A stretch of 64,000 nucleotides of DNA, taken from a virus. The stretch spans positions 1 to 64,000 of the IMG/VR virus record IMGVR_UViG_3300020419_001305; one strand, 5' to 3'. Under the pieces are notes generated by a model. That model searched no databases and had not been told where the DNA came from. It saw only the letters and a list, made by a program, of their open reading frames with translations. Positions 5,394 to 19,257 of the stretch are shown here, piece after piece. The position numbers and the translations under genes are program-made. The number at the start of each line of letters is the position of its first letter. The first letter of the stretch is position 1.

Positions 5394-5404
5394 TATGCTA
5401 TAAA
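5376..5404 (+). promoter_or_regulatory. sigma70-type promoter of the tmRNA
   Basis: TTGACA (5376-5381) and TATAAA (5399-5404) with a 17-bp spacer overlap the end of the preceding gene. The -10 is also part of a full T4-late-like TATAAATA (5399-5406), so both transcription programmes could use it. The predicted start near 5411 coincides with the start of the tmRNA acceptor piece. Confidence 0.8.
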
Positions 5405-5409
5405 TACAC

Positions 5410-5730
5410 TACAACGTTGAAGCAATTCAAACGCTGAACAGGACCTGGGGGCAGTACCCAGCAGGTCCACCATAAACACATTTTTATAACGGGAGTGTGC
5501 TTATGATGGGCCTGAAATAGGATCGACTGGCAGTCAATAGAGTTCGTGGAGTTGTCCGGATCTAAGCTCGGTTAACGCGAAGACACGTTATAGATGCAAA
5601 CGATAATGTATCAAACGTATTTTCTTTCGTAGATTTTTCTAATGCGAGAAAGTACGTGAATGAGGATTTTGCCTTAGCGGCATAATCACTCGGGGTTGGC
5701 AACTTACCTAGCAACAGAAAAGTTGTGTCT
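5410..5730 (+). ncRNA. ssrA: circularly permuted (two-piece) tmRNA
   Basis: Ribosome-rescue RNA. The 3' tRNA-like half comes first: T-arm CTGGGGGCAGTACCCAG, acceptor strand CAGGTCC (5462-5468), discriminator A and encoded CCA (5470-5472). After an intervening segment comes the 5' half beginning GGGCCTG (5508-5514), which pairs with CAGGTCC over seven base pairs and includes the G3:U70 alanine identity pair. The tag frame starts at GCA 5596 and stops at TAA 5683-5685. It encodes 29 residues starting ANDNVSN and ending NEDFALAA, the latter a ClpX/ClpA-type degron. Permuted tmRNAs are known from alphaproteobacteria and some cyanobacteria and betaproteobacteria. The outer ends and excised segment are approximate. 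Confidence 0.93.
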
Positions 5731-5744
5731 TTATGGGAGCTGGT

Positions 5745-6575
5745 ATGAACATTGGCGTAAGAGGAAGTAAACTAGCAATTGATTATGCTAAAAAAGTCGA
5801 AGCACATTGTTTCAAAAGTTTCCAAACCAATCTTGTAAAAATTAAAACAGACGGCGACATATTTGAAAACAAAAGTATCCAAGACATTGGAGGCAAGGGT
5901 GTATTTGTTTCTGCTATAGAACAACAACTATTAGATAAAAAAATAGATGTAGCAGTACATTCATTCAAAGATCTGCCAGCAGTAATGGATGATAGGCTAG
6001 AAATTTCTGCTGTGTTAAAAAGGAACGATCCTAGAGATTGTTATATAGGCACACTCTTTCCGCATGCGAAAGTAGGGACAGGTTCACCTAGACGAATAGC
6101 ACAACTTAAAGAAAACTTTAATGTAGAATTTGAGATATTACCTATACGGGGTAATATTGATACAAGGATTAAAAAACTAGAACAAGGCAAGTATGATGCT
6201 ATTATATTAGCCGTAGCAGGACTAGAGGCCCTAAATTTAGATCATAAGATAAAAAAGATATTTCCTTTCAGTAAAATGTTACCATGCGTAGGACAGGGTG
6301 TGATAGCAATACAAACTAGAAAAGGATCAAGCCATAGCGATGTTGCGAAACTAAATAATCATTGGAATACGTACTATTCTGTAATGGCTGAAAGAGCAAT
6401 GCTCCAAGAGATAGATGGAGACTGCCATACCGCGGTAGGTGCTATTTCTACTCTAGTTGGCGACTGTCTAAATTTAAAAGCGATAAATTATAATACAGGA
6501 AAACAGTTTGAATCAACAAGCAAACTTTTAGAGTATAAACTATTAGGTGAGGAAGTAGGTAAAAATATAAAGTGA
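5745..6575 (+). CDS. hemC: hydroxymethylbilane synthase (porphobilinogen deaminase)
   Basis: Condenses four porphobilinogens into hydroxymethylbilane in heme synthesis. Conserved blocks are present in order: NIGVRGSKLA, DIGGKGVF, AVHSFKDLPA, VGTGSPRR, PIRGNIDTR, LPCVGQG and IDGDCHTAVGA. Cys227 in the last block is the attachment site of the dipyrromethane cofactor. The frame is open from 5733, but ATG 5745 is better: it follows GGGAG and gives the usual N-terminus. At 276 residues it is shorter than the typical 300-320, mostly in the C-terminal domain. It lies just after the tmRNA and its stop overlaps the hemE start, so the two are coupled. This is a host-type metabolic gene carried by a phage. 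Confidence 0.95.
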   Translation: MNIGVRGSKLAIDYAKKVEAHCFKSFQTNLVKIKTDGDIFENKSIQDIGGKGVFVSAIEQQLLDKKIDVAVHSFKDLPAVMDDRLEISAVLKRNDPRDCYIGTLFPHAKVGTGSPRRIAQLKENFNVEFEILPIRGNIDTRIKKLEQGKYDAIILAVAGLEALNLDHKIKKIFPFSKMLPCVGQGVIAIQTRKGSSHSDVAKLNNHWNTYYSVMAERAMLQEIDGDCHTAVGAISTLVGDCLNLKAINYNTGKQFESTSKLLEYKLLGEEVGKNIK

Positions 6576-7552
6576 ATAAAAAATTTATTAATGCTTGTAA
6601 CCGGAAAAAGCAGAAGGTCCCTCCTATATGGTTTATGAGACAAGCAGGTAGATACCACTCACACTATAGAGATCTTAAAACCCGTAGCACATTTGAATTG
6701 TTATGTAAGACTCCTGAACTTGCTGGAGAAGTAGCATTAGGACCTATTCTTGAATTTGATTATGATGTTGCTATTTTGTTCTCTGATATCTTGTTTCCTC
6801 TTGAAGGATTAGGCTTACCGTTAAGATTTGATCCAGGACCAAAGTTTCAATTTAATTTAAGCAAGGACAATCTTAAGGACTTACAAGACATAGAAAAAGC
6901 ATATCATTTTATGTCCTTTCAAAAAGATGCTTTACTTACAACTAGAGCTATGTTACCCAAAGATAAAAGTTTAATAGGTTTTGTAGGCGGACCTTGGACA
7001 TTAATGAATTATGCTTGTGGTAATTCCCGTGTATCTGATAAATTTAAATTAGACTACATGACAAATACGTTAATACCTTTACTCAAAATGAATATAGAAT
7101 TACAAATTAATGCTGGTGCTGAAAAAGTTATGATATTTGATAGTGGCTTACAGAACATGTCAACTAAATTTTTTAACCAAAAATATTCTCCTTTATTGAT
7201 GTCAATGGCCATGCCACAAACTGCTTACTATAGCAGACACCTGCCCAGAAAATGTATCAATAAAGTGTTAGAGGGAGACTGGGGTGGCATTGGCATAGAT
7301 AGTAAAGTTAATATAATAGACTGTTTAGAAATTGTTGATAACGGTTTTGTACAGGGTAACTTTGATGAACGTAAAATGTTATTACCAAAATATAAGTTTA
7401 TGTACGAGATAGAAAAGTATTGTGACGATATACGTAAATCAGAAGTAGATACTAGCGGATGGGTTTGTGGATTGGGACATGGAATAGATAAGGAAACTCC
7501 AGAAGAACATGTTCATTTGTTTATTGAAACTGTACGAAACAGATTTTCATAG
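6572..7552 (+). CDS. hemE: uroporphyrinogen decarboxylase
   Basis: Decarboxylates uroporphyrinogen III to coproporphyrinogen III, two steps after HemC. The substrate-binding N-terminal signature PPIWFMRQAGRYHSHYR is clear, followed by ILFSDILFPLEGLGLPLRF, GFVGGPWTLMNY and the C-terminal GLGHGIDKETPEEHV. At 326 residues it is slightly shorter than the usual 340-360. It overlaps the hemC stop by 4 nt. hemD, which would make uroporphyrinogen III, is not in the window and may be supplied by the host. Confidence 0.95.
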   Translation: MNKKFINACNRKKQKVPPIWFMRQAGRYHSHYRDLKTRSTFELLCKTPELAGEVALGPILEFDYDVAILFSDILFPLEGLGLPLRFDPGPKFQFNLSKDNLKDLQDIEKAYHFMSFQKDALLTTRAMLPKDKSLIGFVGGPWTLMNYACGNSRVSDKFKLDYMTNTLIPLLKMNIELQINAGAEKVMIFDSGLQNMSTKFFNQKYSPLLMSMAMPQTAYYSRHLPRKCINKVLEGDWGGIGIDSKVNIIDCLEIVDNGFVQGNFDERKMLLPKYKFMYEIEKYCDDIRKSEVDTSGWVCGLGHGIDKETPEEHVHLFIETVRNRFS

Positions 7553-7684
7553 TTTATTTTTTTTCTTCTTCATGCCCATGTAATGCTCAGATGGTTCGTA
7601 ATCCCATCTCTTACCGTGATGCCCACGTATATCAGCATACCACATTCTCATTCGGACAATGAATTTTCTTATTCCAAGACTCAC
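7547..7684 (-). CDS. small hypothetical protein, GTG start
   Basis: 45-residue leftward gene with a GTG start placed 7 nt after AGGAG and directly abutting the stop codon of the gene upstream, which supports real translation. The product is basic (RKFIVRMRMWYADIRGHHGK) and ends MKKKKNKL. The stop overlaps the last bases of hemE on the other strand. Function unknown. Confidence 0.6.
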   Translation of the reverse strand: MSLGIRKFIVRMRMWYADIRGHHGKRWDYEPSEHYMGMKKKKNKL

Positions 7685-7882
7685 TTAGATGCTCCTATAT
7701 GGTTTAGGAATACCGTCCTCGCCTAGTATCATTTCACCTGTATCAGAATATGAACCGCACATACGTCCGTTTGATCCAGGACCATAATAACGTGTAGGTT
7801 TTACTTCAATTTCCTCACCGTTTCGCATAGCAGTTTTTTTATGGTTAATAGATATTATACCTCTTTGTTTTATTCCTGCCAT
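7685..7882 (-). CDS. hypothetical protein
   Basis: 65-residue protein in a leftward three-gene operon. The N-terminal half is basic (IKQRGIISINHKKTAMRNGE) and the C-terminal half is Gly/Tyr-rich (YYGPGSNGRMCGSYSDTGE). No family recognised. It starts one base after the preceding leftward gene ends, with AGGAAAAT upstream. Confidence 0.65.
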   Translation of the reverse strand: MAGIKQRGIISINHKKTAMRNGEEIEVKPTRYYGPGSNGRMCGSYSDTGEMILGEDGIPKPYRSI

Positions 7883-7883
7883 C

Positions 7884-8087
7884 TTATTTTCCTATCTTTT
7901 TGAATCTACCTATAGGCAACTTAATTTTCTTTGTCATATCTTTGCCTTTTTTGCCGATCCAACTTACAACAGTTTCCGTAGCTTTAGCTCCGCTTTGAAA
8001 AGATTTTACAGCCTTCTTCCAACCAAGAGCTGTAACTTCTTTTGTTTCTTCCCCATCAGTGAATTTAAATACACGTTTTTTGGACAT
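7884..8087 (-). CDS. hypothetical basic protein
   Basis: First gene of a leftward operon. The product is a 67-residue Lys-rich protein (MSKKRVFKFTDGEE..., IGKKGKDMTKKIK) with no recognised family. An AAGGAAAT ribosome-binding site precedes the start, and a late-type ATAAATA box lies 19 nt upstream on the same strand. Confidence 0.65.
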   Translation of the reverse strand: MSKKRVFKFTDGEETKEVTALGWKKAVKSFQSGAKATETVVSWIGKKGKDMTKKIKLPIGRFKKIGK

Positions 8088-8105
8088 AGTATTTCCTTTT
8101 GGGTT

Positions 8106-8112
8106 TATTTAT
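8106..8112 (-). promoter_or_regulatory. late-promoter-like box ATAAATA (leftward)
   Basis: Read on the minus strand this is ATAAATA, 19 nt upstream of the first leftward small gene. A second ATAAATA faces the other way at 8122-8128, so the intergenic region has a divergent pair. Confidence 0.5.
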
Positions 8113-8121
8113 ATGTATTTA

Positions 8122-8128
8122 ATAAATA
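8122..8128 (+). promoter_or_regulatory. late-promoter-like box ATAAATA
   Basis: ATAAATA 32 nt before the thermonuclease start. A TATAAT at 8135-8140 lies just downstream but lacks a good -35 partner. Confidence 0.4.
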
Positions 8129-8159
8129 TACGTATATAATATGGTTGAGGGAGAATAAA

Positions 8160-8591
8160 ATGTACGAGTATAAATGCAAAATACTTAGAGTGGTAGATGG
8201 AGATACAGTTGATATTGATATTGACTTAGGGTTTGGAATGTGGATGCATAAGGAACGTGTTCGTATGATGGGCATAGATACTCCGGAATCAAGAACAAGA
8301 GATAAAATTGAAAAGAAATTTGGCTTAGCATCAAAGGCAAGACTAAAGGAATTACTACCGATTGGATCAATACAACATTTAAAAACAGAAATTGATAGGA
8401 GCGGAGAAGATGCTAGAGGTAAGTTCGGACGTATACTTGGAGACTTTCTTATTGAAGGAAATGCTGTAACCGAGCAAATGATTACAGAAGGTTATGCTGT
8501 TGCCTATCACGGCCAGAACAAAGACGAAGTAGAACAAGCTCACTTAAATAATAGAGAGAAACTTATTAAAGAAGGAAAAGTGATCCTATGA
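8160..8591 (+). CDS. thermonuclease-like nuclease (SNase family)
   Basis: 143-residue secretion-signal-free nuclease of the staphylococcal nuclease fold, which cleaves DNA or RNA with Ca2+. Motifs: VVDGDTVD near residue 10, VRMMGIDTPES (the catalytic Arg and Glu region) and GKFGRILGDF (second catalytic Arg region). The frame is open from 7995, but ATG 8160 follows GAGGGAG and gives the usual N-terminus, so I reject the extension. The stop overlaps the following start. A role in host DNA degradation is inference. Confidence 0.88.
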   Translation: MYEYKCKILRVVDGDTVDIDIDLGFGMWMHKERVRMMGIDTPESRTRDKIEKKFGLASKARLKELLPIGSIQHLKTEIDRSGEDARGKFGRILGDFLIEGNAVTEQMITEGYAVAYHGQNKDEVEQAHLNNREKLIKEGKVIL

Positions 8592-8890
8592 TAAACGGAA
8601 TAACATATATTTTATTAGCAACATTATTTTATACCGCCACACCAGACATTAAAGAAAATCTATACAGTTGGCAACTGAACTTCAGTAGTTACGAAAAATG
8701 TACAACATTTTTTGATCAATTTGGAGATAAACTTTTGAACGGTGTAATGGACCATGGTAAAAAGAAATATGGCAAAGATGTTGGAGTAGAATATATGTCA
8801 TGTGCTATGGTAAGGGTTGATCCACAAGCATTAATCAATGGATTCACAGAGCCTGAAATTTTAGGGCAGAAAGTGGTTTACCAACAATGA
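8588..8890 (+). CDS. hypothetical secreted-like protein
   Basis: 100 residues. The start overlaps the nuclease stop. The N-terminus (INGITYILLATLFYTATP) is a short hydrophobic stretch that could be a signal peptide or anchor. Two cysteines in the mature part (KCTTFF, MSCAMV) could form a disulphide. It resembles the next gene in size, hydrophobic start and Cys spacing, suggesting a tandem pair. Function unknown. Confidence 0.7.
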   Translation: MINGITYILLATLFYTATPDIKENLYSWQLNFSSYEKCTTFFDQFGDKLLNGVMDHGKKKYGKDVGVEYMSCAMVRVDPQALINGFTEPEILGQKVVYQQ

Positions 8891-9147
8891 AATTTTTAAT
8901 AGTAGCAATAATGGCTTTGACTTATACAAACGGTGATAGAAATATCTTTGTGTTTACTCATACAGACTTTGATACATCACAAAAATGTGTCCAATATGTA
9001 CAACAAAATTCACAAGGTTTGATGTATAAATTAAGAGCCGAATTTCCAAATGACAAATTGGATAGGATTATGTGTGTTCCAGAAGAAAACGTTGAGAAGA
9101 TTTTGGAACAATCTAAACCAATAATTGACGAAGGTCAAAAAATCTAA
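8887..9147 (+). CDS. hypothetical secreted-like protein
   Basis: 86 residues, starting inside the stop of the previous gene. A short hydrophobic N-terminus (KFLIVAIMALTYT) is followed by a soluble part with two cysteines (QKCVQYV, IMCVPEE). It has the same layout as its upstream neighbour and as small proteins at 29134 and 31709. Function unknown. Confidence 0.7.
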   Translation: MKFLIVAIMALTYTNGDRNIFVFTHTDFDTSQKCVQYVQQNSQGLMYKLRAEFPNDKLDRIMCVPEENVEKILEQSKPIIDEGQKI

Positions 9148-9156
9148 CCAAAACAG

Positions 9157-9185
9157 TTGACAGATGTTGCACTTTATTATATAGT
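9157..9185 (+). promoter_or_regulatory. sigma70-type promoter
   Basis: TTGACA (9157-9162), 17-bp spacer, TATAGT (9180-9185), upstream of the small HTH gene. Confidence 0.75.
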
Positions 9186-9221
9186 GTAACTATGTTTATA
9201 AAAGATAAACTTAAAACAACT

Positions 9222-9239
9222 AGAGCTCTTCTGAGCTCT
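9222..9239 (+). terminator. leader hairpin followed by T-run
   Basis: AGAGCTC and GAGCTCT form a perfect 7-bp stem around TTCT and are followed by ATTTTT. It lies about 30 nt into the predicted transcript and just before the ribosome-binding site of the HTH gene. It could be an attenuator or a weak intrinsic terminator. Confidence 0.5.
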
Positions 9240-9263
9240 ATTTTTAATAAAGGAGGCCCAATG

Positions 9264-9527
9264 ATGGCAACTAAATCAATAAACAAAGGTTCAACTTACT
9301 ACAGAGTAGGTTCACAAAACCAACAAATCCTAGCAAACTACTGGGGTACTGGAAAAACTTTCACACTAGAAGGTTTGAAAGATAAATTAGACATAGCATC
9401 TCCAGGTGCTAGAATCTCTGAATTAAGAGATAATGGTTTCAACGTAAAAGCTAAACCACAAAACGGTGGAGCGGTTGGAAGACCAGTTCTTGAATACCAA
9501 ATTTCAAGAAGAAGAACTTTTGCGTAA
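9264..9527 (+). CDS. small winged-helix DNA-binding protein (HTH_39-like)
   Basis: 87-residue protein. The segment TLEGLKDKLDIASPGARISELRDNGFNVK has the helix-turn-helix layout of phage HTH_39-type domains, ending in a basic tail (SRRRTFA). A DNA-binding or regulatory role is likely; the target is unknown. AAAGGAGG at about 9249-9256 sets the start at ATG 9264 (7 nt) or ATG 9261. The longer open frame from 9192 would begin at the transcription start and is not favoured. It has its own promoter and leader hairpin, so expression is probably regulated. Confidence 0.75.
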   Translation: MATKSINKGSTYYRVGSQNQQILANYWGTGKTFTLEGLKDKLDIASPGARISELRDNGFNVKAKPQNGGAVGRPVLEYQISRRRTFA

Positions 9528-9541
9528 TTAACCAAAAGAAC

Positions 9542-9570
9542 TTGACATCTGCGCCTGTTAATGTTATTAT
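9542..9570 (+). promoter_or_regulatory. sigma70-type promoter
   Basis: TTGACA (9542-9547), 17-bp spacer, TATTAT (9565-9570). A second TATAAT lies at 9573-9578. It serves the gene at 9602. Confidence 0.75.
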
Positions 9571-9601
9571 TATATAATATTAATAGGCAGGAGCAGGCGC
9601 G

Positions 9602-10051
9602 ATGACAATGCATTTACAAAGAGGACTTACGACTCTTAATACAAAAAAACGTAAGGCATCTAAAAGAAAGCCAGACAGTTATTATATGGATGGCTGGCGT
9701 AAACAAAATAAATTTTACAAACAAAAAAATCTTCCTACAATGTCATTAGAAGAATATATTGATTATATTCATGGGGTGTACAAGCCTAAGGTAGAACCAC
9801 GTGCGGTTTCAGTTCCTTGGCATCATACAGATTCTAATTACAGAAGAGATACATCAGACGTTCCTAGCCATAGTTCAGGACACGGAATAGGTACTGCTAC
9901 TAAAAAGCCAGCAATGGAATATACTGGTGAACGAAGACTAGTTGGCATTGCTATGATGCACAAAAGTAATTTGGTTCCAGTATTTGCTGATGACGATGAT
10001 AAAAATGGATCAAAACAAGCAACAGAGATAGCACAGATGAGGAGAAACTAA
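9602..10051 (+). CDS. hypothetical protein
   Basis: 149 residues, preceded by GGCAGGAGCAGGCGC. The N-terminal 40 residues are very basic (TKKRKASKRKPDS). The C-terminal half has low-complexity Ser/His/Gly-rich stretches and an acidic DDDDK segment. No catalytic motif recognised. The stop overlaps the start of the cell-wall hydrolase gene. Confidence 0.7.
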   Translation: MTMHLQRGLTTLNTKKRKASKRKPDSYYMDGWRKQNKFYKQKNLPTMSLEEYIDYIHGVYKPKVEPRAVSVPWHHTDSNYRRDTSDVPSHSSGHGIGTATKKPAMEYTGERRLVGIAMMHKSNLVPVFADDDDKNGSKQATEIAQMRRN

Positions 10052-10671
10052 TGTTGGAGTATTGCAATTCTATTAGAGTATTTAAATATTATATGAAACT
10101 AATATCTAAATTCTTACTTACATTAAGTTTAATCTTTGTAACCATTCCTATGTCATTTGCTTCTGCTATTACATTACAGAACGCAGTTGAGGGAGAGCTT
10201 TATTCTAACTCATCTCATCCTGAATTATACTGTATGGCTATGAATATTTACTTTGAAGCTAAATCAGAACCAAAGGCAGGCCAATATGCCGTTGCTGATG
10301 TTACTTTAAATCGTGTAAATGACAGTAGATATCCTAATTCTATCTGTGAAGTGGTATTACAAGGACCTACTCGTGAAAGTTGGAAAACACGAAAAGACGA
10401 AACACTGACTAACGAAGAAAGGAAGTTTTACCCTGTGAAACATAGATGCCAATTTTCTTGGTACTGTGACGGTAAAGCTGATACTGTAAAGGACGGTGAT
10501 GCTTGGCGTAAAGCCCAAGAGTATGCTTATCGGATTGTAGTAGAAGGAAAATACAGAGGTATTACTGAAGGTTCAACTCACTACCACGCCACTTATGTAA
10601 GTCCTAAGTGGGCACCGCAACTGGATTTGGTAGGAAGAGTAGGAAGGCATATATTTTATAGATGGCCATAA
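10051..10671 (+). CDS. cell wall hydrolase, SleB/CwlJ type
   Basis: 206 residues. A hydrophobic segment (ISKFLLTLSLIFVTIPMSFASA, residues about 18-39) is a signal peptide or anchor. The following domain carries YCMAMNIYFEAKSEP and AVADVTLNRV, the signature of the Hydrolase_2 family, with the likely catalytic Glu in YFEA. This family cuts peptidoglycan. GAGGAG precedes ATG 10051; an alternative start is ATG 10093, which would give a conventional signal peptide. It is followed by a second peptidoglycan hydrolase, so both probably act in lysis or wall access. Confidence 0.87.
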   Translation: MLEYCNSIRVFKYYMKLISKFLLTLSLIFVTIPMSFASAITLQNAVEGELYSNSSHPELYCMAMNIYFEAKSEPKAGQYAVADVTLNRVNDSRYPNSICEVVLQGPTRESWKTRKDETLTNEERKFYPVKHRCQFSWYCDGKADTVKDGDAWRKAQEYAYRIVVEGKYRGITEGSTHYHATYVSPKWAPQLDLVGRVGRHIFYRWP

Positions 10672-11345
10672 AACTTTGGAAAAAGATTCCTCAACGAATT
10701 AGATCAATATTTTTATTAACCTGCTTTTGGTTTTTTAGTGTCACCGTGGCTTACATGGTTGGCACTTCACAGCCTAATAAATGGGTTGTTGCTGAAATCA
10801 CAAAAACAGTACAAAACAAAGTTCAATCAGAATGGAAAGAATACGGATTCTTTGAACCTGAGATGAGTTATAATAGCAACATAACTTTTATTAAAGCAGT
10901 AACAAAATGTATCGACTACGTAAACTTAACTACGCCGGTTGAACAACGTGTACCAAGAGAAATAATTGTCGCTATGGCTGTGATTGAAACAGGATATGGT
11001 ACAAGTAGATTTGCTATCAAAGGTAACAATCTATTTGGTATAAGAACGTGGAGCAAAGATGTTGCCCAACTGAAACCAAAAGACAATCCCGACGTGGAAT
11101 GGGGAGTGAAACAATACATAACCAAATGCCAATCTGTAAAAGATATGGTTTCTATTATAAACAGATTACCTGTATATGCGGATTTTAGGGATCTAAGAGA
11201 GCAACAATTAAACACAGGTGACAAAGATATCATTGCTCTAGTGCCTCTTTTAAGTGAATGGAGCACCAATCCAAACTACACAAATCTAATAATTTCAAAG
11301 ATTAACAAGGTTCAAAACATTTTGGCAAAAAAAGTTTCCAAATAG
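10662..11345 (+). CDS. glucosaminidase-domain peptidoglycan hydrolase (Bax/FlgJ-like)
   Basis: 227 residues. A single transmembrane segment near residues 15-32 (IFLLTCFWFFSVTVAYMVG) anchors a periplasmic domain. PREIIVAMAVIETGYGTSRFA with the catalytic Glu, then KGNNLFGI, are typical of the glucosaminidase fold that cleaves the glycan strand. It overlaps the preceding hydrolase gene by 10 nt. No holin candidate is obvious directly beside it, although several small membrane proteins occur elsewhere in the window. Confidence 0.88.
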   Translation: MAIKLWKKIPQRIRSIFLLTCFWFFSVTVAYMVGTSQPNKWVVAEITKTVQNKVQSEWKEYGFFEPEMSYNSNITFIKAVTKCIDYVNLTTPVEQRVPREIIVAMAVIETGYGTSRFAIKGNNLFGIRTWSKDVAQLKPKDNPDVEWGVKQYITKCQSVKDMVSIINRLPVYADFRDLREQQLNTGDKDIIALVPLLSEWSTNPNYTNLIISKINKVQNILAKKVSK

Positions 11346-11347
11346 TC

Positions 11348-11376
11348 TTGACTTTTGCACTTTATTATCGTATAAT
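11348..11376 (+). promoter_or_regulatory. sigma70-type promoter
   Basis: TTGACT (11348-11353), 17-bp spacer, TATAAT (11371-11376), upstream of three lipoprotein genes. Confidence 0.8.
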
Positions 11377-11428
11377 GTAATTAATAATGTAACTCGTTCA
11401 CAACGAACGTAATGAAATGGAGGCTTTT

Positions 11429-11941
11429 ATGAAAGGCATTTTAAAATTAGGCGCATTAGTAACAGTAGTAGGTATGCTTCAAGCATGTTCAGGTATGGTT
11501 ACAATCGCTGAACGTGAAGACTATGCTCAACCGAAATGGTACGCCAACTGTGTTGAGAGTGGAACCACTGGCTGGTTCTGGTGGAAAGAAGAATATGCTT
11601 ATGCCTGTGGAGCAGGTGTTAGTGTTTTCGCACAAGCGGCTGAAGAGCAAATGTATGCTATCGCAATGAATAACTTTGCTAAAAGAATTAACAGTGAAGT
11701 AAACTCTAATACAAATCTAAAATTTATCGATAACAACGGAAAAGAATCTAGAGCAACAAGCACTACGATTTCTTATGTAGTTAAAGATACAACTATTAGA
11801 GAGCATATCGCTAAAGAAACAGGTACTTTTAAATACCAAGGTAAGATGTTTACCTTTGTAAAACTGAGGATGCCAAAGAACGTTTTTGACGAACTCATCC
11901 AGGAGGCAAAAAGTGCGAAAGTTTCCGTGGCAACTAATTAA
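11429..11941 (+). CDS. lipoprotein, LPP20-like
   Basis: 170 residues. The signal peptide ends in the lipobox MLQAC, so the mature protein is probably lipid-anchored. The rest, with AQAAEEQMYAIAMNNFAKRINSEV and a strand-rich C-terminus, resembles LPP20-type lipoproteins. ATG 11429 is chosen because GGAGG lies 5 nt upstream; ATG 11417 is in frame but has no RBS. It is the first of three consecutive lipoprotein genes. Confidence 0.8.
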   Translation: MKGILKLGALVTVVGMLQACSGMVTIAEREDYAQPKWYANCVESGTTGWFWWKEEYAYACGAGVSVFAQAAEEQMYAIAMNNFAKRINSEVNSNTNLKFIDNNGKESRATSTTISYVVKDTTIREHIAKETGTFKYQGKMFTFVKLRMPKNVFDELIQEAKSAKVSVATN

Positions 11942-12266
11942 TCCGGTAATTATCGCGGGAGCAGTCATGGCTTTGAGTGCCTGCTCTTCGCACAATAAAC
12001 CTGTCATGTCACAGTTTCAGCCACAGTACTGTCATCAGACTACAACCATTAACACAAATAATGGACAGACTGTAAACAGTAAAGGCTTAACAGAATGTAC
12101 AGACAATCCAAAGAATAAACACTTCTTAGCTTACAGTGGTATTGCTAAGACATGTAGGGAGCATTTTTATGAAATTTGGCTTAACGGAAAGGCAGTTAAA
12201 CAACGTGGCTTTGTGTGTCAAAAACTCGACGGTAGTTGGGAAATCGTTAATCATCCTTATAACTAG
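11913..12266 (+). CDS. lipoprotein with 17-kDa-antigen-like domain
   Basis: 117 residues from a GTG start placed 6 nt after AGGAGG (11901-11906). The frame also opens at ATG 11886 without an RBS. The signal peptide ends with lipobox ALSAC. The C-terminal CREHFYEIWLNG plus GFVCQKLDGSWEIV resembles the C-terminal domain of alphaproteobacterial 17-kDa-type surface antigens (CRE...AC...DGSW.IV). It overlaps the genes on both sides. A cell-envelope role is likely; function unknown. Confidence 0.75.
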   Translation: MRKFPWQLINPVIIAGAVMALSACSSHNKPVMSQFQPQYCHQTTTINTNNGQTVNSKGLTECTDNPKNKHFLAYSGIAKTCREHFYEIWLNGKAVKQRGFVCQKLDGSWEIVNHPYN

Positions 12267-12669
12267 TTTGTTTTTAACGGCTTGTGGTGCTACATCGCAA
12301 CAGTTTAGTACAACTAGTGTAAGCACAGGAGCAAGTACGGCTCAATACTATCATTCTAAAAATAGTATGTTGGGTCTTGGATTAAATTACTTTAAATGGA
12401 CCTATCATATGATGGAACCGTATGATAGGGAACAACAACAACATGCGATATTTTTCGCACTTAATAATCTACAAAACGGACAAACGACACGTTGGTACAA
12501 TGGAAATACTGGGGCTAAAGGCGCCGTACAGGTAGCTATGACATATCCACAAGGAAGTGGTTACTGTAGGGTCCTAATGAGTCAAATCTATTACAAGAAC
12601 AAGCAAAGAGACTTCAAAGAGACTGCTTGTATTAACAGTATTGATAACACCTGGCGTTTCGTCCGATAA
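12169..12669 (+). CDS. lipoprotein with 17-kDa-antigen-like domain
   Basis: 166 residues if started at ATG 12169, which follows AGGGAGC; the frame is open from 12136. A hydrophobic segment ends in lipobox FLTAC, giving a long n-region. The C-terminal YCRVLMSQIYYKN...ETACINSIDNTWRFV repeats the CR...AC...W pattern of the gene before it, so the two are probably paralogues. The first 98 bases overlap the previous gene in another frame, a spanin-like nesting, although the sequence does not look like a spanin pair. Confidence 0.72.
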   Translation: MKFGLTERQLNNVALCVKNSTVVGKSLIILITSLFLTACGATSQQFSTTSVSTGASTAQYYHSKNSMLGLGLNYFKWTYHMMEPYDREQQQHAIFFALNNLQNGQTTRWYNGNTGAKGAVQVAMTYPQGSGYCRVLMSQIYYKNKQRDFKETACINSIDNTWRFVR

Positions 12670-12672
12670 ATA
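12666..12672 (+). promoter_or_regulatory. late-promoter-like box ATAAATA
   Basis: ATAAATA overlaps the stop of the third lipoprotein gene, 22 nt before the start of the 674-residue membrane protein. Confidence 0.5.
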
Positions 12673-12693
12673 TTTAATTAGTAAAGGACGATT

Positions 12694-14718
12694 ATGGCAT
12701 TAGGTATATTAGTATTATTATCTGCTTTAAGTATTTCAGCAGTAGCAATTTATTATAGTATAGCAGGTCTCGTAGCAATATTTGCCGCGGCCGCGATTCC
12801 CATTATGGTAATGGGAACTGTACTAGAAGTAGGAAAACTTGTAACCGCAGTTTGGTTACACAAATATTGGGGTAAGGCCGTATGGTGGCTGAAAACTTAT
12901 TTAAGTGTGGCCGTGGTCGTCCTTATGTTTATCACAAGTATGGGTATCTTCGGATATCTTTCCAAAGCACACATTGAACAAACATCTGCTAGTATAGAAT
13001 CTACAGAAAAGATTAATCAGATCGACACAGAGATTGCCCGTTACACAAACATTGTAACAAGATCTGAAACTAAAATAGATAAGGCAGAAAATGCTGGTGC
13101 TAATAAAAATGACACTATCCAAGATCAGATAGATAGAGAACAAAAACGTATTGATACAGCCTATACAAGAATACAGCCTCTTGTAGATAAGCAAGAGCTG
13201 ATAATAGAAAAGGAAATGGATAGGAAAGATAATAAAATTAAGCCTTATCTTGCCCAGGTATCTAGCATAGATGCTGACTTAGAAACACTTACAAACTTAT
13301 TAAACAGACGTGACAATGAAAGTATTAGACGTTTACAAAGTATAGTAGGAACACGTATTGACGGTACCTACGGTAGTAGAACTGCTAAACAAGTAGAAAA
13401 CTATAGAGATGGACTATTAGCAAAACGTGAAAGTATATTAGAAACTATATTACAAATAGAAGATAAAGAATCATCCTTAGTAATTGCGGCTAATGAAGAG
13501 ATAAAACGACTTAGAGCAATAGCAGAACAGGAAATAGCAGATTCAAATAAAGTAATTAATAAACTCAGATCAGAAATCGGCACAGTTGTAACTGATAACA
13601 GTACTGAATTAGTCCAAGGCGAATTGTTAAAGATCAAAAATGCTAATAATGAAATAGAATTACTAACTGAAGAGAAGTACAAGCTAGAAGCAGAGTATAG
13701 AAAATTAGAAGCTGAAGTAGGTCCTATCAAATACATTGCTGAATTCGTTTACGGTGAAGAAGCAGATAGAGACTTGCTTGAAGAAGCAGTACGATGGGTA
13801 ATTATTTTAATTATATTTGTATTTGACCCATTGGCTGTCTTACTATTAATAGCTAGTCAGTATACCTTTGACTTTGCTAACCCTAAACGCAGGGGGTTGG
13901 CCTGGCGTGAATATGAACAAGCTAGGGCTAAAAAAATTATGGAGAACATAGATGATAAATCAGATACTGACAATACAATTACAGAACCTGAAGATGATGG
14001 ACAAGATCCTAGGGACGAAAAGCGAGACGACCTACAAGAAATTAATGTGGGAAGTGATGAACGAGATAGAGAGACCACTGATGAGCCAAGTGTTCAGCCA
14101 GGGGAGACAGTGGAGGAAACTAAAGAACAGGTTTCTGACAATAAATTAGATAACACTGAAGAGTGGCAAGAGCTTTACGATGATGTCGAAAAAAAAGATT
14201 CCGAGTCATCGGAAGAGTCAAAAACCGATTTAGATAGTTGGAACGAATGGGTAGAGGCCGCAAATAAAGAAGCAGAAAAAGAAGTAGAAAAAGAACCAGA
14301 AGTTATAACAGGTATCGGGGCAGTTAAAGGTACTTTCAAACAAGCAGAAGTAGAAAAACAAAAACAAGAAGAAGTAAAAGATTTAGGTGAAGATATTACT
14401 CCCGAACAGATATCTGAAAGATCTTCTCTTGTACAAAAGTATGATCAAGATAGTGTATGGTCTGAAGCGAAAAGAGTATGGAAATCTAAGCATCCAGATC
14501 AAAATATAAAAGATTGGAAACATGCTTATATTTCAGGCAGGATACATGAACTACCATGGCAACAATACTTAGACTATAAAGATCAAGAAGTACAAAAAGC
14601 ACTTGAAAGTCGTATTAAACCAGATCTCACAGAAGTTATTAATCCAGATGGGTACGAACAAAATGCTGAACAAAGTGAAAAGTCAGTATGGAACAAGATA
14701 CGTGACAAGGACAAATAA
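12694..14718 (+). CDS. large membrane-anchored coiled-coil protein
   Basis: 674 residues. The N-terminus has three hydrophobic segments (about 1-40 and 65-90). A long coiled coil covers about 95-350 and contains, at about 207-238, the motif RRLQSIVGTRIDGTYGSRTA, which resembles a peptidoglycan-binding domain 1 repeat. Another transmembrane segment is at about 367-390 (VIILIIFVFDPLAVLLLIAS). The C-terminal 270 residues are highly acidic and soluble. I recall homologous large proteins in T4-like cyanophages; the function is unknown. An AAAGGACG RBS precedes the start. Confidence 0.85.
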   Translation: MALGILVLLSALSISAVAIYYSIAGLVAIFAAAAIPIMVMGTVLEVGKLVTAVWLHKYWGKAVWWLKTYLSVAVVVLMFITSMGIFGYLSKAHIEQTSASIESTEKINQIDTEIARYTNIVTRSETKIDKAENAGANKNDTIQDQIDREQKRIDTAYTRIQPLVDKQELIIEKEMDRKDNKIKPYLAQVSSIDADLETLTNLLNRRDNESIRRLQSIVGTRIDGTYGSRTAKQVENYRDGLLAKRESILETILQIEDKESSLVIAANEEIKRLRAIAEQEIADSNKVINKLRSEIGTVVTDNSTELVQGELLKIKNANNEIELLTEEKYKLEAEYRKLEAEVGPIKYIAEFVYGEEADRDLLEEAVRWVIILIIFVFDPLAVLLLIASQYTFDFANPKRRGLAWREYEQARAKKIMENIDDKSDTDNTITEPEDDGQDPRDEKRDDLQEINVGSDERDRETTDEPSVQPGETVEETKEQVSDNKLDNTEEWQELYDDVEKKDSESSEESKTDLDSWNEWVEAANKEAEKEVEKEPEVITGIGAVKGTFKQAEVEKQKQEEVKDLGEDITPEQISERSSLVQKYDQDSVWSEAKRVWKSKHPDQNIKDWKHAYISGRIHELPWQQYLDYKDQEVQKALESRIKPDLTEVINPDGYEQNAEQSEKSVWNKIRDKDK

Positions 14719-14726
14719 GTATTAGG

Positions 14727-15116
14727 ATGACTGATACTCTTATTAATTTAATTACATACCCTGACAAACTTTTTAATGATAACAAAAGTATAATTTTGGT
14801 TAATCCAAGTGATATGCTAAAAGAGCATTTCAATTTATTAGCCAAAGATTTAAAAAGTCCAATTAACGTATATCTTTATGAAAACAACGAAACTGAGATA
14901 GAATGGCTTCTAGATGTTTGCCAAAATGTAGATAATATTATACTAGATATTGATAATACCAAAATACAACAGTGGGTAATTGGTTACATACTTAATTTTA
15001 GCAAAACTTTTTACTTGACAAACCAGGTGGGTATGCCTTATAATATAATTAATTCAAATAGAATATATGAGTTCAAACAATTTATGGAAGGAGTAAATTA
15101 TTTTGAGGTACAATAA
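14727..15116 (+). CDS. hypothetical protein
   Basis: 129 residues, soluble, with alternating strands and helices (SIILVNPSDML, NIILDIDNTK) like a Rossmann-type fold, but no motif I can name. Conserved small proteins at this position occur in related phages as far as I recall. Its 3' part contains a strong promoter for the downstream bS21 gene. Confidence 0.75.
   Translation: MTDTLINLITYPDKLFNDNKSIILVNPSDMLKEHFNLLAKDLKSPINVYLYENNETEIEWLLDVCQNVDNIILDIDNTKIQQWVIGYILNFSKTFYLTNQVGMPYNIINSNRIYEFKQFMEGVNYFEVQ
15015..15044 (+). promoter_or_regulatory. intragenic sigma70-type promoter for bS21
   Basis: TTGACA (15015-15020), 18-bp spacer, TATAAT (15039-15044), inside the 3' end of the upstream gene. 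It would start transcription about 50 nt before the TTG start of the ribosomal protein gene. Confidence 0.65.
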
Positions 15117-15369
15117 ATTTAATCGAAGGCACGACAAGAATAAAGAAAAAGAAATTGGAAGTGGCATCTACGTAGAAGTTAGAGGTGGCGATGCTACAAA
15201 AGCAATTAGGATTTTCAAGAAGAAAGTTCAAGACGCAGGGATTATACAAGAGTATAGAGAAAGACAATACTATGTCAAGCCAAGCGAAAAGAAAAGAAAA
15301 GCCAAACAAGCAGGTAGAAAACGTTGGCTTAAGAAACAAGAAAAAAATTTAGTAGATAGAGGTTTCTAA
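15103..15369 (+). CDS. rpsU: ribosomal protein bS21 homologue
   Basis: 88 residues. IYVEVRGGDATKAIRIFKKK, QDAGIIQEYRERQYYVKPSEK and the very basic KKRKAKQAGRKRWLKKQEK tail match bS21, the small-subunit protein near the mRNA exit site that helps initiation. Typical bS21 is about 70 residues; this has a 16-residue N-terminal extension. It uses a TTG start 9 nt after AAGGAG. bS21 genes have been reported in marine phages. Incorporation into host ribosomes to favour phage mRNAs is the usual proposal and is inference here. Confidence 0.9.
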   Translation: MRYNKFNRRHDKNKEKEIGSGIYVEVRGGDATKAIRIFKKKVQDAGIIQEYRERQYYVKPSEKKRKAKQAGRKRWLKKQEKNLVDRGF

Positions 15370-15945
15370 ATGCCCCTAAAGGCTGAAGCATGGTTTCCTA
15401 GTCTAATCTGGTCTGGGTTGCTAGACAACACACACAACGATAAAATTAAAGATTTTGCTTATGAAAGAAAAAAGCAAGATAAAGGTGTAGAACTATCTAA
15501 TTATATAGGGTGGCAAAGCACGTCAATTAGACAAGGTGACGATGACACATTTGATAGACTTGTTGAATCTATAACTTCTAACATAGAAGATTGTAGAAAT
15601 TTAGTTGAACTTCCTGAATTACAACTTTACAATATTTGGATTAATATTAATACTCCTGGAGCATATAACGCCTTACATAATCATCCAGGAAGTGTTTTAA
15701 GCGGTGTTTACTATGTAGAAAGCACAGAAGAGCAGGGTAACATATTCTTTGAAAGAGGCGATAATGCTGAATATTTTTTACCACCTGTACAACAAACTAA
15801 TTATTTTAACGGAACTGCTACATCCTATAAAGCTATATCAGGTGCTATGTATGTATTTCCTAGTTGGTTAAAACATAGTGTACAACCTAATAAAACAGAT
15901 AAAGATAGAATATCAATATCATTTAACTACGGAGTGAAGAAATGA
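15370..15945 (+). CDS. 2OG-Fe(II) oxygenase family protein
   Basis: 191 residues of the phage-common 2OG-FeII_Oxy_5 type. Iron-binding and cosubstrate regions: NALHNHPGSVLSGVYYV (first His motif), FPSWLKHSVQPN (distal His) and DRISISFNYG (Arg for 2-oxoglutarate). It hydroxylates an unknown target, protein or small molecule. It begins immediately after the bS21 stop and overlaps the GMP reductase start. A paralogue lies at 28523. Confidence 0.85.
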   Translation: MPLKAEAWFPSLIWSGLLDNTHNDKIKDFAYERKKQDKGVELSNYIGWQSTSIRQGDDDTFDRLVESITSNIEDCRNLVELPELQLYNIWININTPGAYNALHNHPGSVLSGVYYVESTEEQGNIFFERGDNAEYFLPPVQQTNYFNGTATSYKAISGAMYVFPSWLKHSVQPNKTDKDRISISFNYGVKK

Positions 15946-16991
15946 GAATCGAACAGGATATTAAACTAGACTACCAAGATGTGCTTTTTAAGCCTAAAAG
16001 ATCTACTTTAACATCTAGGAAAGATGTAGACCTAACAAGAACATTCAAATTTTATAATAGTGGCAAAGAATGGACTGGTGTTCCTATCATGTCAAGTAAC
16101 ATGGATGGTGTAGGAACATTTTCTATGGCAAAGATTTTACAAGAAAAGAAAATGATCACTGTGTTAAGAAAACATTATACATTAGATGATTGGAAAACTG
16201 CTATAGGTGATGGAGTGAAAATGAAGTACCTAGCTGTCTGTACAGGTACAGGAGTAATATGGGATAAAGATGCTTTGGATTATAACACTATGAAACAAGT
16301 GTTGGAAAAATATCCAGACATCCCTTTTATTTGTGTAGATGTAGCAAACGGTTATCACGAGAACTACGGTGACTTCATTGAAAAACTAAGGTACGAATAT
16401 CAGGATAAAACTATCATAGCAGGTAATGTTATTACTGGGGAAATGACTGAAGAATTAATCTTAAGAGGAGCCGACGTAGTTAAGTGTGGAATTGGTCCTG
16501 GATCAGTATGTACTACACGATTAATGACAGGTGTTGGAGTTCCGCAACTATCAGGCATCATTGAATGTGCTGATGCGGCCAATGGCGTTGGAGGACACAT
16601 TATTGCTGACGGAGGTTGTGTACATCCAGGAGATGTTGCTAAAGCCTTTGGAGCAGGTGCTCACTTTGTAATGCTTGGCGGTATGTTAGCAGGACACGAT
16701 GAGAGCGAAGGTGAAGTAATTAATGGCAAAGTACAATTTTACGGAATGAGTTCAAATGCGGCTATGACGAAGCATGGTTCACGTAAAGATGGTTACCGTG
16801 GAGCAGAAGGCAAGGTGGTTGAACTTCCTTATAAAGGTGCGGTAAACGACACAGTAACAGAAATATTAGGCGGTGTACGTTCCGCGGCTACATATATTGG
16901 TGCTAAACGTATTAAAGACATGCCAAAATGTACTACCTTTGTACGTGTCAATAATGTAGTAAACAAGGTTTATACTCCGTTTGAAGCATAA
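15942..16991 (+). CDS. guaC: GMP reductase
   Basis: 349 residues, the length of bacterial GuaC. It converts GMP to IMP with NADPH, which lets the cell rebalance purines, here plausibly from host RNA toward dATP. DYQDVLFKPKRST at the start, IMSSNMDGVGTFSMA, and the catalytic loop GIGPGSVCTTRLMTGVGVPQ with the active Cys are clear, followed by IADGGCVHPGDVAKA and MLGGMLAGHDES. The absence of CBS domains supports GuaC over IMP dehydrogenase. Confidence 0.94.
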   Translation: MRIEQDIKLDYQDVLFKPKRSTLTSRKDVDLTRTFKFYNSGKEWTGVPIMSSNMDGVGTFSMAKILQEKKMITVLRKHYTLDDWKTAIGDGVKMKYLAVCTGTGVIWDKDALDYNTMKQVLEKYPDIPFICVDVANGYHENYGDFIEKLRYEYQDKTIIAGNVITGEMTEELILRGADVVKCGIGPGSVCTTRLMTGVGVPQLSGIIECADAANGVGGHIIADGGCVHPGDVAKAFGAGAHFVMLGGMLAGHDESEGEVINGKVQFYGMSSNAAMTKHGSRKDGYRGAEGKVVELPYKGAVNDTVTEILGGVRSAATYIGAKRIKDMPKCTTFVRVNNVVNKVYTPFEA

Positions 16992-17008
16992 AATGGTAAA
17001 AAAATCAC

Positions 17009-17037
17009 TTGACTTTTAGCCGTATTATGCTTATATT
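17009..17037 (+). promoter_or_regulatory. sigma70-type promoter before hsp20
   Basis: TTGACT (17009-17014), 17-bp spacer, TATATT (17032-17037). A late-type ATAAATA follows at 17050-17056, giving a double promoter region and a leader of roughly 85-100 nt. Confidence 0.75.
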
Positions 17038-17049
17038 AATACTAGTATG

Positions 17050-17056
17050 ATAAATA
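17050..17056 (+). promoter_or_regulatory. late-promoter-like box ATAAATA
   Basis: ATAAATACTATTG, upstream of the hsp20 leader. It gives the best match in the window to the extended T4 late sequence TATAAATACTATT. Confidence 0.55.
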
Positions 17057-17143
17057 CTATTGTTGAAGATATGCCAGGGTTGGGTATTTTTAACAAGGGC
17101 ACGAGCCCAAATAACGTTAACTTGCTTATATAAGGAGAAAACA

Positions 17144-17584
17144 ATGACAAGAGTAACTACACTAAACCTACCCACTTTTCACAGATCAATGATTGGATTC
17201 GATAGTTTGTTCGATGAAATGGACAGAATGTTCGAAAACAGTACAACTTCATCTGGTGGATATCCCCCATACAATATAGCTAAGATCAACGAAGATGAGT
17301 TTATGATCTCAATCGCAGTTGCTGGCTTTGGTATGGATAACCTTAAGATTGAAAAGGACAAAAATGTGCTTACAATCGAAGGTACACAGCCGAAAGGTAC
17401 TGAAGAAGTGAACTACGTTCACAGAGGTATTGCTGGACGTAATTTCAGCAGACAGTTTACATTAGCAGAACATGTTGATGTAACATCAGCAAAACTAGAA
17501 AAAGGTATGCTAAACATACATTTGACTAGAGAAGTACCAGAAGCACTGAAACCTAAAACAATTGATATTGTAGAGGCAGAGTAA
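17144..17584 (+). CDS. small heat-shock protein (Hsp20/IbpA family)
   Basis: 146 residues, alpha-crystallin domain from about 40 to 130. YNIAKINEDEFMISIAVAGF, LTIEGTQ and HRGIAGRNFSRQFTLAEHV are typical of IbpA-like proteins, which hold unfolding proteins. Hsp20 genes are common in T4-like marine phages. ATG 17144 follows AAGGAG; the open frame from 17060 lies in the leader and is rejected. The long leader contains short inverted repeats (GGGC/GCCC) but no clear RNA thermometer. Confidence 0.92.
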   Translation: MTRVTTLNLPTFHRSMIGFDSLFDEMDRMFENSTTSSGGYPPYNIAKINEDEFMISIAVAGFGMDNLKIEKDKNVLTIEGTQPKGTEEVNYVHRGIAGRNFSRQFTLAEHVDVTSAKLEKGMLNIHLTREVPEALKPKTIDIVEAE

Positions 17585-17593
17585 CTGAGGTAA

Positions 17594-17617
17594 GTTTAGG
17601 GGGGAAACCCCCTAAAC
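17594..17617 (+). terminator. 10-bp hairpin with GAAA tetraloop
   Basis: Perfect stem GTTTAGGGGG / CCCCCTAAAC around a GAAA loop (17604-17607), between hsp20 and clpS. No T-run follows (AGACAGG), so it is not a classical intrinsic terminator. Same stem length, same loop and same inter-gene position as 4756-4779. Confidence 0.75.
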
Positions 17618-17631
17618 AGACAGGATTTATT

Positions 17632-17946
17632 ATGACTGAGATTATTTTAGAAAAAGAAATAAACGTAAAAGAGCAGATTGAAGAAGTTACTAAAGAACCT
17701 TCAAAATACAAGGTTATATTTATGAACGACAACGAAACTCCTATGGACTTTGTTGTTGCTCTATTGACAGAAGTATTCAAGCATTCAGAAAAGACAGCCC
17801 AAGAACTTACCATGAAAATACATGCTGAAGGACAGGCAATAGTTGGTATATATTCATTTGAAATAGCAGAGCAAAAGGCAGTTGAAGCCACTAAATTATC
17901 ACGTGAAAATGGGTACCCACTACAGATAGCAATAGACAAAGAATAG
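17632..17946 (+). CDS. clpS: ClpS, adaptor for the Clp protease
   Basis: 104 residues with a disordered N-terminus and the ClpS core from about residue 24. KYKVIFMNDNETPMDFVVALL contains the N-degron pocket region (NDNETPM), KIHAEGQAIVGIYSFEIAEQK the second half, and ENGYPLQIAID the final strand. ClpS hands N-degron substrates to ClpA-ClpP. The phage also carries clpP (26886) and a tmRNA. It follows hsp20 across a hairpin. Confidence 0.92.
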   Translation: MTEIILEKEINVKEQIEEVTKEPSKYKVIFMNDNETPMDFVVALLTEVFKHSEKTAQELTMKIHAEGQAIVGIYSFEIAEQKAVEATKLSRENGYPLQIAIDKE

Positions 17947-17947
17947 C

Positions 17948-17954
17948 ATAAATA
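17948..17954 (+). promoter_or_regulatory. late-promoter-like box ATAAATA
   Basis: ATAAATACTTTG begins 2 nt after the clpS stop and 37 nt before the heme oxygenase start, which could make the bilin pair a late-expressed unit. Confidence 0.5.
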
Positions 17955-17990
17955 CTTTGTTGAATGATAATTTATTACAAGGAGTAAAGC

Positions 17991-18572
17991 ATGAGTTTAG
18001 AATCTTTAACACAAGCGTCACATCAGAACGCTGACAGAACGGAATTTGCTCGAGAGAAGATGGCCGGTAATTTGACTGAAGAAAAGTATAAAACTTTTTT
18101 ATGGAATACTTACTTGGTATATGATATCTTAGAAGATGTAGCATCTAGCATGGGAGCATTTGCGCCTATGGATCCTTCTATGCCAGCTGATGATTTACCG
18201 CTTGATGGATTAAAACAAGCAGATGATATCCTAGCTGATTTTGTTGAGCTAGGTGGTAACCCAGATAGTCCTCCTACAGAAGTACAAGCAACTGAGGATT
18301 ATAGAAATCATATCGTGAAGAACATACAACATGATAAGCAAAAGTTAATTGCTCATCTGTATGTGAATCATATGGCAGATTTAACTGACGGACCAACATT
18401 AGTAAAAAAAGTACCAGGTTCAGGAAAAATGTACAAGTTTGAAGAAATGAATCACTCTATAGAAGAGATGAAGGAACTTCTTTCAAGACGTGTTTCTGAA
18501 GGTGATGCTATAGAAGCTAACATTGGTTTCGGATTCAGAACACAACAGTACGAACAGTTAAACGCACTATAA
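17991..18572 (+). CDS. heme oxygenase
   Basis: 193 residues. Opens heme to biliverdin IX-alpha, CO and Fe2+ using ferredoxin-type reductant. The proximal His lies in SLTQASHQNAD (His11). The segment LIAHLYVNHMADLTDGPTLVKK aligns with the distal-helix region of bacterial and cyanophage heme oxygenases (LVAHSYTRYLGDLSGGQ). Here the usual GDLSGGQ is ADLTDGP (129-135), keeping the functional Asp130 but altering the glycines. AAGGAG precedes the start. The bilin reductase follows by one base, the same pairing as in marine phage HemO-PcyX cassettes. Confidence 0.88.
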   Translation: MSLESLTQASHQNADRTEFAREKMAGNLTEEKYKTFLWNTYLVYDILEDVASSMGAFAPMDPSMPADDLPLDGLKQADDILADFVELGGNPDSPPTEVQATEDYRNHIVKNIQHDKQKLIAHLYVNHMADLTDGPTLVKKVPGSGKMYKFEEMNHSIEEMKELLSRRVSEGDAIEANIGFGFRTQQYEQLNAL

Positions 18573-18573
18573 A

Positions 18574-19257
18574 ATGATTTGGGATAGGCTGGTTGAATGC
18601 CAGGACCAAATCATTAAACTGTTCGATCATCACGGAACTGAGATAAATGAACCAGGAATGGATCATTTTAATCAACCAGATAGCGGATGGATTAACAGAG
18701 TCTGGGCGAACGACGATATCAGAAGAGCTCATATAGACGTAGTAGATGCTAGAGGTTCAAAAGGCCTTTGGATGATGCACGTCTGTGTATTTCCTCAACT
18801 TAACAACAATGGACCAATTTATGGCTTTGATGTTATATCAGGAAAAAGTAAAATGACAGGAGCCTTTCATGATTTTTCAGCAAGTTCAGGTGGCGAAGAT
18901 CATCCAATGGTTCAGTGGTATCAAGATGAAGTAAAAGACTTTATTCCAGAAAAACAAAGAGAACTTCCGGAATGGGCAACAAACATTTTTACTCCTAGCA
19001 TGATTGCGGCAAGTAATGTTAGAGAAGAAGAAGCATCAGTTATCATTCAAATTGCTTTAGACAATCTTTTCACATATCTTGATACCATTGGTGAACACAC
19101 TGGTGAAGGTGACAGAGATTTAACCTTAGCTAGTCAAAATTATTATTGCCATAATCAGCAACAGAATCCACATACGCCTAGAGTAATGAAATCCTTAGGA
19201 TTAAATGAAACTGACGTAGAAAAATTCTGTACTGATATGTTATTTCCAAAAAGTTAA
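18574..19257 (+). CDS. pcyX: ferredoxin-dependent bilin reductase, PcyX-like
   Basis: 227 residues. Reduces biliverdin to a linear tetrapyrrole such as phycoerythrobilin using ferredoxin. The core WMMHVCVFPQ ... PIYGFDVISGKSKMTGAFHDFS matches the FDBR family, with His69 and Asp86 at the places of the PcyA catalytic His88/Asp105 pair. The C-terminus YYCHNQQQNPHTPRVMKSLG matches the family end (YCQ.QL.N..T.R.L). Retention of His points to PcyX or PcyA rather than PebS. It directly follows heme oxygenase. PcyX enzymes have been described from uncultured oceanic phages. The exact product needs biochemistry. Confidence 0.88.
   Translation: MIWDRLVECQDQIIKLFDHHGTEINEPGMDHFNQPDSGWINRVWANDDIRRAHIDVVDARGSKGLWMMHVCVFPQLNNNGPIYGFDVISGKSKMTGAFHDFSASSGGEDHPMVQWYQDEVKDFIPEKQRELPEWATNIFTPSMIAASNVREEEASVIIQIALDNLFTYLDTIGEHTGEGDRDLTLASQNYYCHNQQQNPHTPRVMKSLGLNETDVEKFCTDMLFPKS

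Follow-up and report, generated by a model that had tools for sequence, protein, structure and literature searches.

A heme oxygenase homologue with a degenerate active site beside a conserved PcyX in a marine phage lineage carrying hemC and hemE

The window analysed here is a stretch of 64,000 bases of viral DNA (bases 1-64000 of the linear IMG/VR viral record IMGVR_UViG_3300020419_001305, 78,284 bp) that carries two tight gene pairs about 10 kb apart: hemC-hemE, located behind a transfer-messenger RNA (tmRNA) gene and encoding hydroxymethylbilane synthase and uroporphyrinogen decarboxylase, and hemO-pcyX, located behind clpS and encoding a heme oxygenase (HO) homologue and a PcyX-type bilin reductase. 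Genes, residues, gene order, selection and phylogeny together make it reasonably probable, as the best overall explanation, that HemC, HemE and PcyX are working enzymes and that HemO is a pseudo-enzyme. The four genes would not then form a self-contained heme-to-bilin route in this phage, because HemO lacks residues required for the reaction. More tentatively, we propose that one marine lineage turned HemO into a non-catalytic protein that selection retained next to an unaltered PcyX; this clade also has hemC-hemE, both intact, at the tmRNA locus. The sister phages would, on this proposal, have assembled a near-complete viral pathway (AlaS, HemB, HemC, HemE, HemF, HemO and PcyX).

The active site of HemO is degenerate in the window clade

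The product of hemO (positions 17991-18572, plus strand) belongs to the HO family (PF01126, E=1e-14, 55 bits against a cut-off of 23). Across 60 distinct HemO proteins from viruses the distal motif HMGDLSGGQ hardly varies; the window protein has HMADLTDGP, corresponding to changes of Gly139 to Ala and Gly143 to Asp (human HO-1 numbering). In three relatives the motif is HMGDLEG (L002 and L003) or HMGDLEQ (L018), with the next two residues deleted in all three, and the position of the proximal His, kept as His11 in the window, is occupied by Gln in L002 and L003 and by Lys in L018. The Gly143-equivalent column is kept in 58 of the 60 viral sequences, the following Gly in 57 and the proximal His in 57, and the exceptions at all three positions fall within the clade formed by the window, L002, L003 and L018. 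These four are the contigs in which hemC-hemE at the tmRNA locus occurs together with hemO-pcyX. Ala at the Gly139 position, with the remaining distal motif intact, was observed in L045, L049 and L053.

In the published view, the His ligand and two glycines are needed for HO catalysis, and pseudo-HOs lacking them exist in Plasmodium and Arabidopsis; those without the His ligand are retained in other roles (PMC11634067). Changes at Gly139 and Gly143 cost HO activity, according to work cited in PMC8388933. The heme-to-biliverdin step is predicted from these residues to be broken in the window clade. The preliminary description of this DNA had suggested that the genes from hemC to pcyX could act as one route; in the window phage a working route is not supported because of HemO, which lacks an intact distal Gly pair and whose closest relatives also lack the proximal ligand. 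It is unlikely that the route nevertheless operates as first proposed, with HemC and HemE feeding heme, HemO yielding biliverdin despite its altered distal helix and PcyX yielding phycoerythrobilin. The proximal His and the Asp140-equivalent of the window HemO, the single base that separates hemO from pcyX and the purifying selection on hemO all fit such a route. However, the Asp at the Gly143-equivalent position, the part-deleted motif and lost His ligand of the three relatives, and the published loss of activity speak against it.

The hemO frame is open in all four clade members, with a median dN/dS (ratio of nonsynonymous to synonymous substitution rates) of 0.147; pcyX on these contigs has a median of 0.045. 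Both values are rough since dS is near saturation. AlphaFold (AF2) models of HemO have mean pLDDT (predicted local distance difference test) values of 94 and 93, and Foldseek aligns them to the heme oxygenases HmuO and HO-1 with a template modelling score of about 0.8. Given the open frames, the dN/dS near 0.15 and a fold that is predicted to be intact, HemO of the window clade is most likely a repurposed pseudo-heme-oxygenase with a changed role rather than debris. This role could be, for example, heme or bilin binding beside PcyX; biliverdin would then come from elsewhere, or PcyX and HemO would act on another substrate.

We consider it doubtful that HemO is instead a decaying relic of a phage HO that is no longer needed, with PcyX taking biliverdin from another source. 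The faster amino-acid change of hemO relative to pcyX would agree with decay, as would the five contigs that have pcyX without a detected hemO. Decay is harder to reconcile with four open frames out of four, with the low dN/dS and with the confident fold; furthermore, PF01126 had no match in six related single-amplified genomes (SAGs), the only candidate cells tested, so that no alternative source of biliverdin was seen. Nor was a second heme oxygenase found in the known 78 kb of the window record, and matches to the HO family number exactly one per record in all 44 records having any. Scanning the collection with the window HemO revealed no further member of the degenerate clade, and scanning it with HemO of L002 gave nothing beyond the three relatives already known.

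Several points, besides the near-saturation of dS, weigh against the pseudo-enzyme interpretation and its association with hemC-hemE. The window HemO retains its proximal ligand (His11), an Asp140-equivalent and, of the Gly pair, the second residue, making a weak or altered activity possible. The record is a 78-kb fragment, compared to 262 kb for a relative, which leaves room for another heme oxygenase or further heme genes beyond its ends. A single evolutionary event probably underlies the HemO change, so its tie to the hemC-hemE locus may be a coincidence; moreover, three relatives described below (G039, G042 and G024) combine hemC-hemE with a canonical HemO. Finally, the probable host is deduced from a single gene tree, that of HemE.

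PcyX is conserved with and without an intact HemO

The pcyX gene (18574-19257, plus strand) encodes a ferredoxin-dependent bilin reductase (Fe_bilin_red, E=2.7e-16) whose closest match is the solved phage PcyX 5owg (PcyX_EBK42635, E=9e-84). It falls below the PcyA equivalog cut-off (79 versus 206 bits). Asp55, His69 and Asp86 are present in the window protein and in 60 of 60 distinct viral sequences; Asp55 is called PcyX-specific in PMC11480375. The PcyX-like assignment of the preliminary description, made on His69 and Asp86, is thus borne out by the 5owg match and extended by Asp55. On these grounds, PcyX most likely works as a four-electron bilin reductase that would produce phycoerythrobilin from supplied biliverdin.

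Five contigs (L052, L054, L055, L076 and L079) contain pcyX and no detectable hemO within their available flanks, indicating that PcyX need not adjoin a phage HemO. T4-like core genes lie near three of these five contigs' pcyX genes. The HemO change provides a natural experiment, in which PcyX keeps its full conservation beside a degenerate HemO and even on contigs where hemO is undetected; where biliverdin comes from and what HemO does are therefore directly testable by comparing HemO-PcyX pairs from both clades.

HemC and HemE retain their catalytic residues

The hemC open reading frame spans positions 5733-6575 on the plus strand, and its likeliest start is the ATG at 5745, giving a protein of 276 residues (5745-6575). 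HemC matches Pfam PBGD (E=1.5e-62) and lies above the cut-off of the NCBIfam hemC equivalog TIGR00212 (264 versus 164 bits). Its Cys227 aligns to Cys242 of E. coli, the dipyrromethane-cofactor residue, and the catalytic Asp84 and the substrate-binding Arg set (E. coli numbering) are present within FKD, GSPRR, IRGN and TR motifs. The hemE gene (6572-7552, plus strand), which overlaps hemC by 4 bases and begins with GTG, encodes a full-length protein of 326 residues (PF01208, URO-D, E=2.6e-56). This HemE is divergent, as it scores 197 bits against the TIGR01464 equivalog cut-off of 303, yet it groups with alphaproteobacterial HemE and keeps the catalytic Arg37, Arg41, Asp86, Tyr164, Ser219 and His339 (human numbering) in RQAGRY, FSD, WTLMNY, FDSG and LGHG motifs. 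About ten more viral contigs share the catalytic residues of both proteins. In agreement with the preliminary description, which had pointed to an intact Cys227, both genes appear intact and most likely encode working enzymes.

Both enzymes would raise the flux from porphobilinogen to coproporphyrinogen III, the host HemD acting between them. Boosting HemC and HemE would commit precursors to heme, and not to siroheme or B12.

Matches to hemC and hemE in the annotated phage collection did not exceed 37% identity and occurred in records resembling bacterial sequence filed as phage. Four other relatives (G003, G004, G007 and G008, loci L110-L113) carry a canonical HemO together with a shorter hemC of about 250 residues, adjoined by hemF in G003; hemE was not found in these four.

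Sister phages carry fuller sets of tetrapyrrole genes

Genes of the pathway were counted over 43 viral records, i.e. the window's own record and 42 reached via PcyX similarity; as these are fragments, the counts are lower bounds. We found hemC in 11 records, hemE in 7, AlaS in 7, HemF in 3 and HemB in 1, whereas HemD, HemJ and PF00762 ferrochelatase were found in 0 of the 43. HemB, HemD, HemF, HemJ, ferrochelatase and AlaS had no match in the 78-kb window record, a fragment from which absence in the whole phage does not follow. The fullest set is that of G039 (IMGVR_UViG_3300000101_000007, 107 kb), in which the genes for HemF, HemC, HemE and HemB are consecutive, that for AlaS follows after about 8 kb, and another part of the contig encodes a canonical HemO and PcyX, seven genes in all; the Schiff-base lysines of HemB and the pyridoxal-phosphate lysine of AlaS are present. 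G042 encodes HemF-HemC-HemE with AlaS nearby, plus hemO-pcyX, and G024 has AlaS, hemC and hemE at separate places, again plus hemO-pcyX. In G003, G039 and G042, hemF occurs together with hemC. A match to AlaS in the 262-kb relative G013 (G013:C1:54429-55613) is read through one TAA stop.

Judged by gene content, the AlaS-HemB-HemC-HemE-HemF-HemO-PcyX set of these sister phages with a canonical HemO does look like a bilin-supply route. The host would supply HemD, protoporphyrinogen oxidase and ferrochelatase, and the canonical HemO would turn surplus heme into biliverdin, which PcyX would reduce to phycoerythrobilin. These gene sets bear on what hemO-pcyX is for in phages whose hosts are not photosynthetic. 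One proposal for phages with hemO-pcyX is that the genes supply iron (PMC11480375), and the nearby peroxiredoxin-like and Hsp20 genes suggest stress handling; both would accord with release of iron or removal of heme, with no bilin made. We nevertheless find this purpose improbable: boosting heme synthesis and breakdown together only returns the iron just inserted, iron release leaves unexplained why PcyX is more conserved than HemO, and HemO of the window phage has a degenerate active site. Since iron that is inserted and then released brings no net gain, phage-encoded heme synthesis up to coproporphyrinogen oxidation speaks for a bilin or heme as the product rather than for iron release alone. 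These viruses probably manipulate the pigment and heme metabolism of non-cyanobacterial hosts.

HemE phylogeny points to a probable alphaproteobacterial host

Fourteen phage HemE sequences form one clade in the tree (support 100/99), which groups with alphaproteobacterial genomes of 1.2-1.6 Mb, among them single-cell genomes with a G+C content of about 30%; support for the immediate sister relation is modest (85/75). The host is probably a streamlined marine alphaproteobacterium without phycobilisomes, in keeping with the preliminary expectation of a host that does not bear them. The related cells encode alaS, hemC (protein of about 500 residues), hemE, hemH, hemF and hemJ together. Since their HemC shares no more than about 31% identity with the phage HemC, and the tree covers HemE, no cellular source is proposed for hemC. 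In one marine alphaproteobacterial single-cell genome, HemC is part of a 502-residue protein (L121, 2476-3984) encoded upstream of hemE-hemH-hemF-hemJ; by eye this appears to be a HemC-HemD fusion, of which the HemC part alone was matched.

The phage origin of the window stands as described. The relative G013 shares the nrd-clpS-hemO-pcyX block with the window, and its T4-type capsid is 66-72% identical to those of the T4-superfamily jumbo phages PA5oct and Phosso. A search of the window record with core proteins of phage Mosig (T4-type capsid, portal and terminase) gave no match, unlike G013, where matches were obtained. The window phage is probably a large member of the T4 superfamily, a class assigned through G013. 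The size and jumbo-phage-like capsid of that relative suggest that the window probably belongs to a much larger genome.

Comparison with known systems

Like the pelagimyophage cassettes (PcyX_EBK42635, Mosig EXVC030M), the window has adjacent hemO and pcyX genes, Asp55, His69 and Asp86, and 55% identity to the Mosig PcyX. It differs by its degenerate HemO and by hemC-hemE 10 kb upstream; Mosig has no match to PF01379, PF01208 or PF00762. Its Mosig_00059 (MT647606.1, 43207-43977), annotated as putative ferrochelatase, gave no Pfam PF00762 match. Phage three-gene cassettes combine alaS with hemO and pcyA/X (Wegner 2024, PMC11480375), also placing a tetrapyrrole-synthesis gene alongside hemO and a bilin reductase; AlaS was not found in the window record, which has hemC and hemE instead. 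The main text of PMC11480375 does not name the combination of AlaS, HemB, HemC, HemE and HemF found in relatives of the window. A passage of PMC7029224 (Zaragoza-Solas 2020) lists GMP reductase, coproporphyrinogen oxidase and porphobilinogen deaminase in deep-ecotype pelagimyophages. Here too, hemC and a GMP-reductase-family gene occur in a phage, and hemC occurs with hemF in three relatives; hemE and hemO-pcyX are unnamed in that passage, and no hemF was found in the window record. The preliminary description had treated upstream porphyrin genes as not known from such phages. This is only partly right and needs amending for hemC with coproporphyrinogen oxidase (the same passage of PMC7029224) and for alaS with hemO-pcyX (PMC11480375). 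In the open-licence papers searched, we found no phage hemE or hemB, no seven-gene combination and no loss of the HemO active site.

A parallel to the window HemO may be seen in the pseudo-HOs PfHO (Plasmodium) and AtHO2 (Arabidopsis), which keep the HO fold, have lost the catalytic His and/or distal glycines and are retained by selection (PMC11634067). By contrast, the window protein is viral, adjoins a bilin reductase, still has its His and is known here from its sequence and model.

Gene order and neighbourhood of the two pairs

The four genes are real, as supported by Pfam and PDB relatives, and lie where the preliminary description placed them, all on one viral record. The order nrdA-nrdB-hemC-hemE-nuclease-...-clpS-hemO-pcyX is repeated in three other records (G001, G002 and G015), where the four genes therefore co-occur. 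That contigs from different genomes were joined in assembly is extremely improbable: the metagenomic source is the sole point in its favour, and it is countered by the order common to four contigs (G000, G001, G002 and G015) and partly repeated in L089, and by an even base composition across the four genes. Overall G+C of the window is 35.9%, and no near-identical record exists among annotated phages.

Conserved neighbours of the hemO block, all on the plus strand, are a GMP reductase/IMPDH-family gene (15942-16991; PF00478, E=3e-70), the Hsp20 small heat-shock protein gene (17144-17584; PF00011) and the clpS gene for an N-degron adaptor (17632-17946; PF02617, E=1.6e-28). The last is directly upstream of hemO, a position it occupies in nearly every hemO-bearing related locus (window 17632-18572 and about 70 related loci). 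The T4 late promoter TATAAATA was of no use as a marker, with 5 matches against 10 expected.

Directly upstream of hemC lies a tmRNA gene of the alphaproteobacterial permuted type (5354-5730, plus strand; Rfam RF01849, 101 bits), for which ARAGORN predicts a long tag of 29 residues, ANDNVSNVFSFVDFSNARKYVNEDFALAA. A tmRNA also precedes hemC in L083, L085, L089 and L097. ClpP, ClpS, a ClpA-like ATPase and tmRNA occur in a single phage record (window 26886-27470, 17632-17946 and 5354-5730; L099:8819-11080), and together make up a predicted near-complete protein-degradation set.

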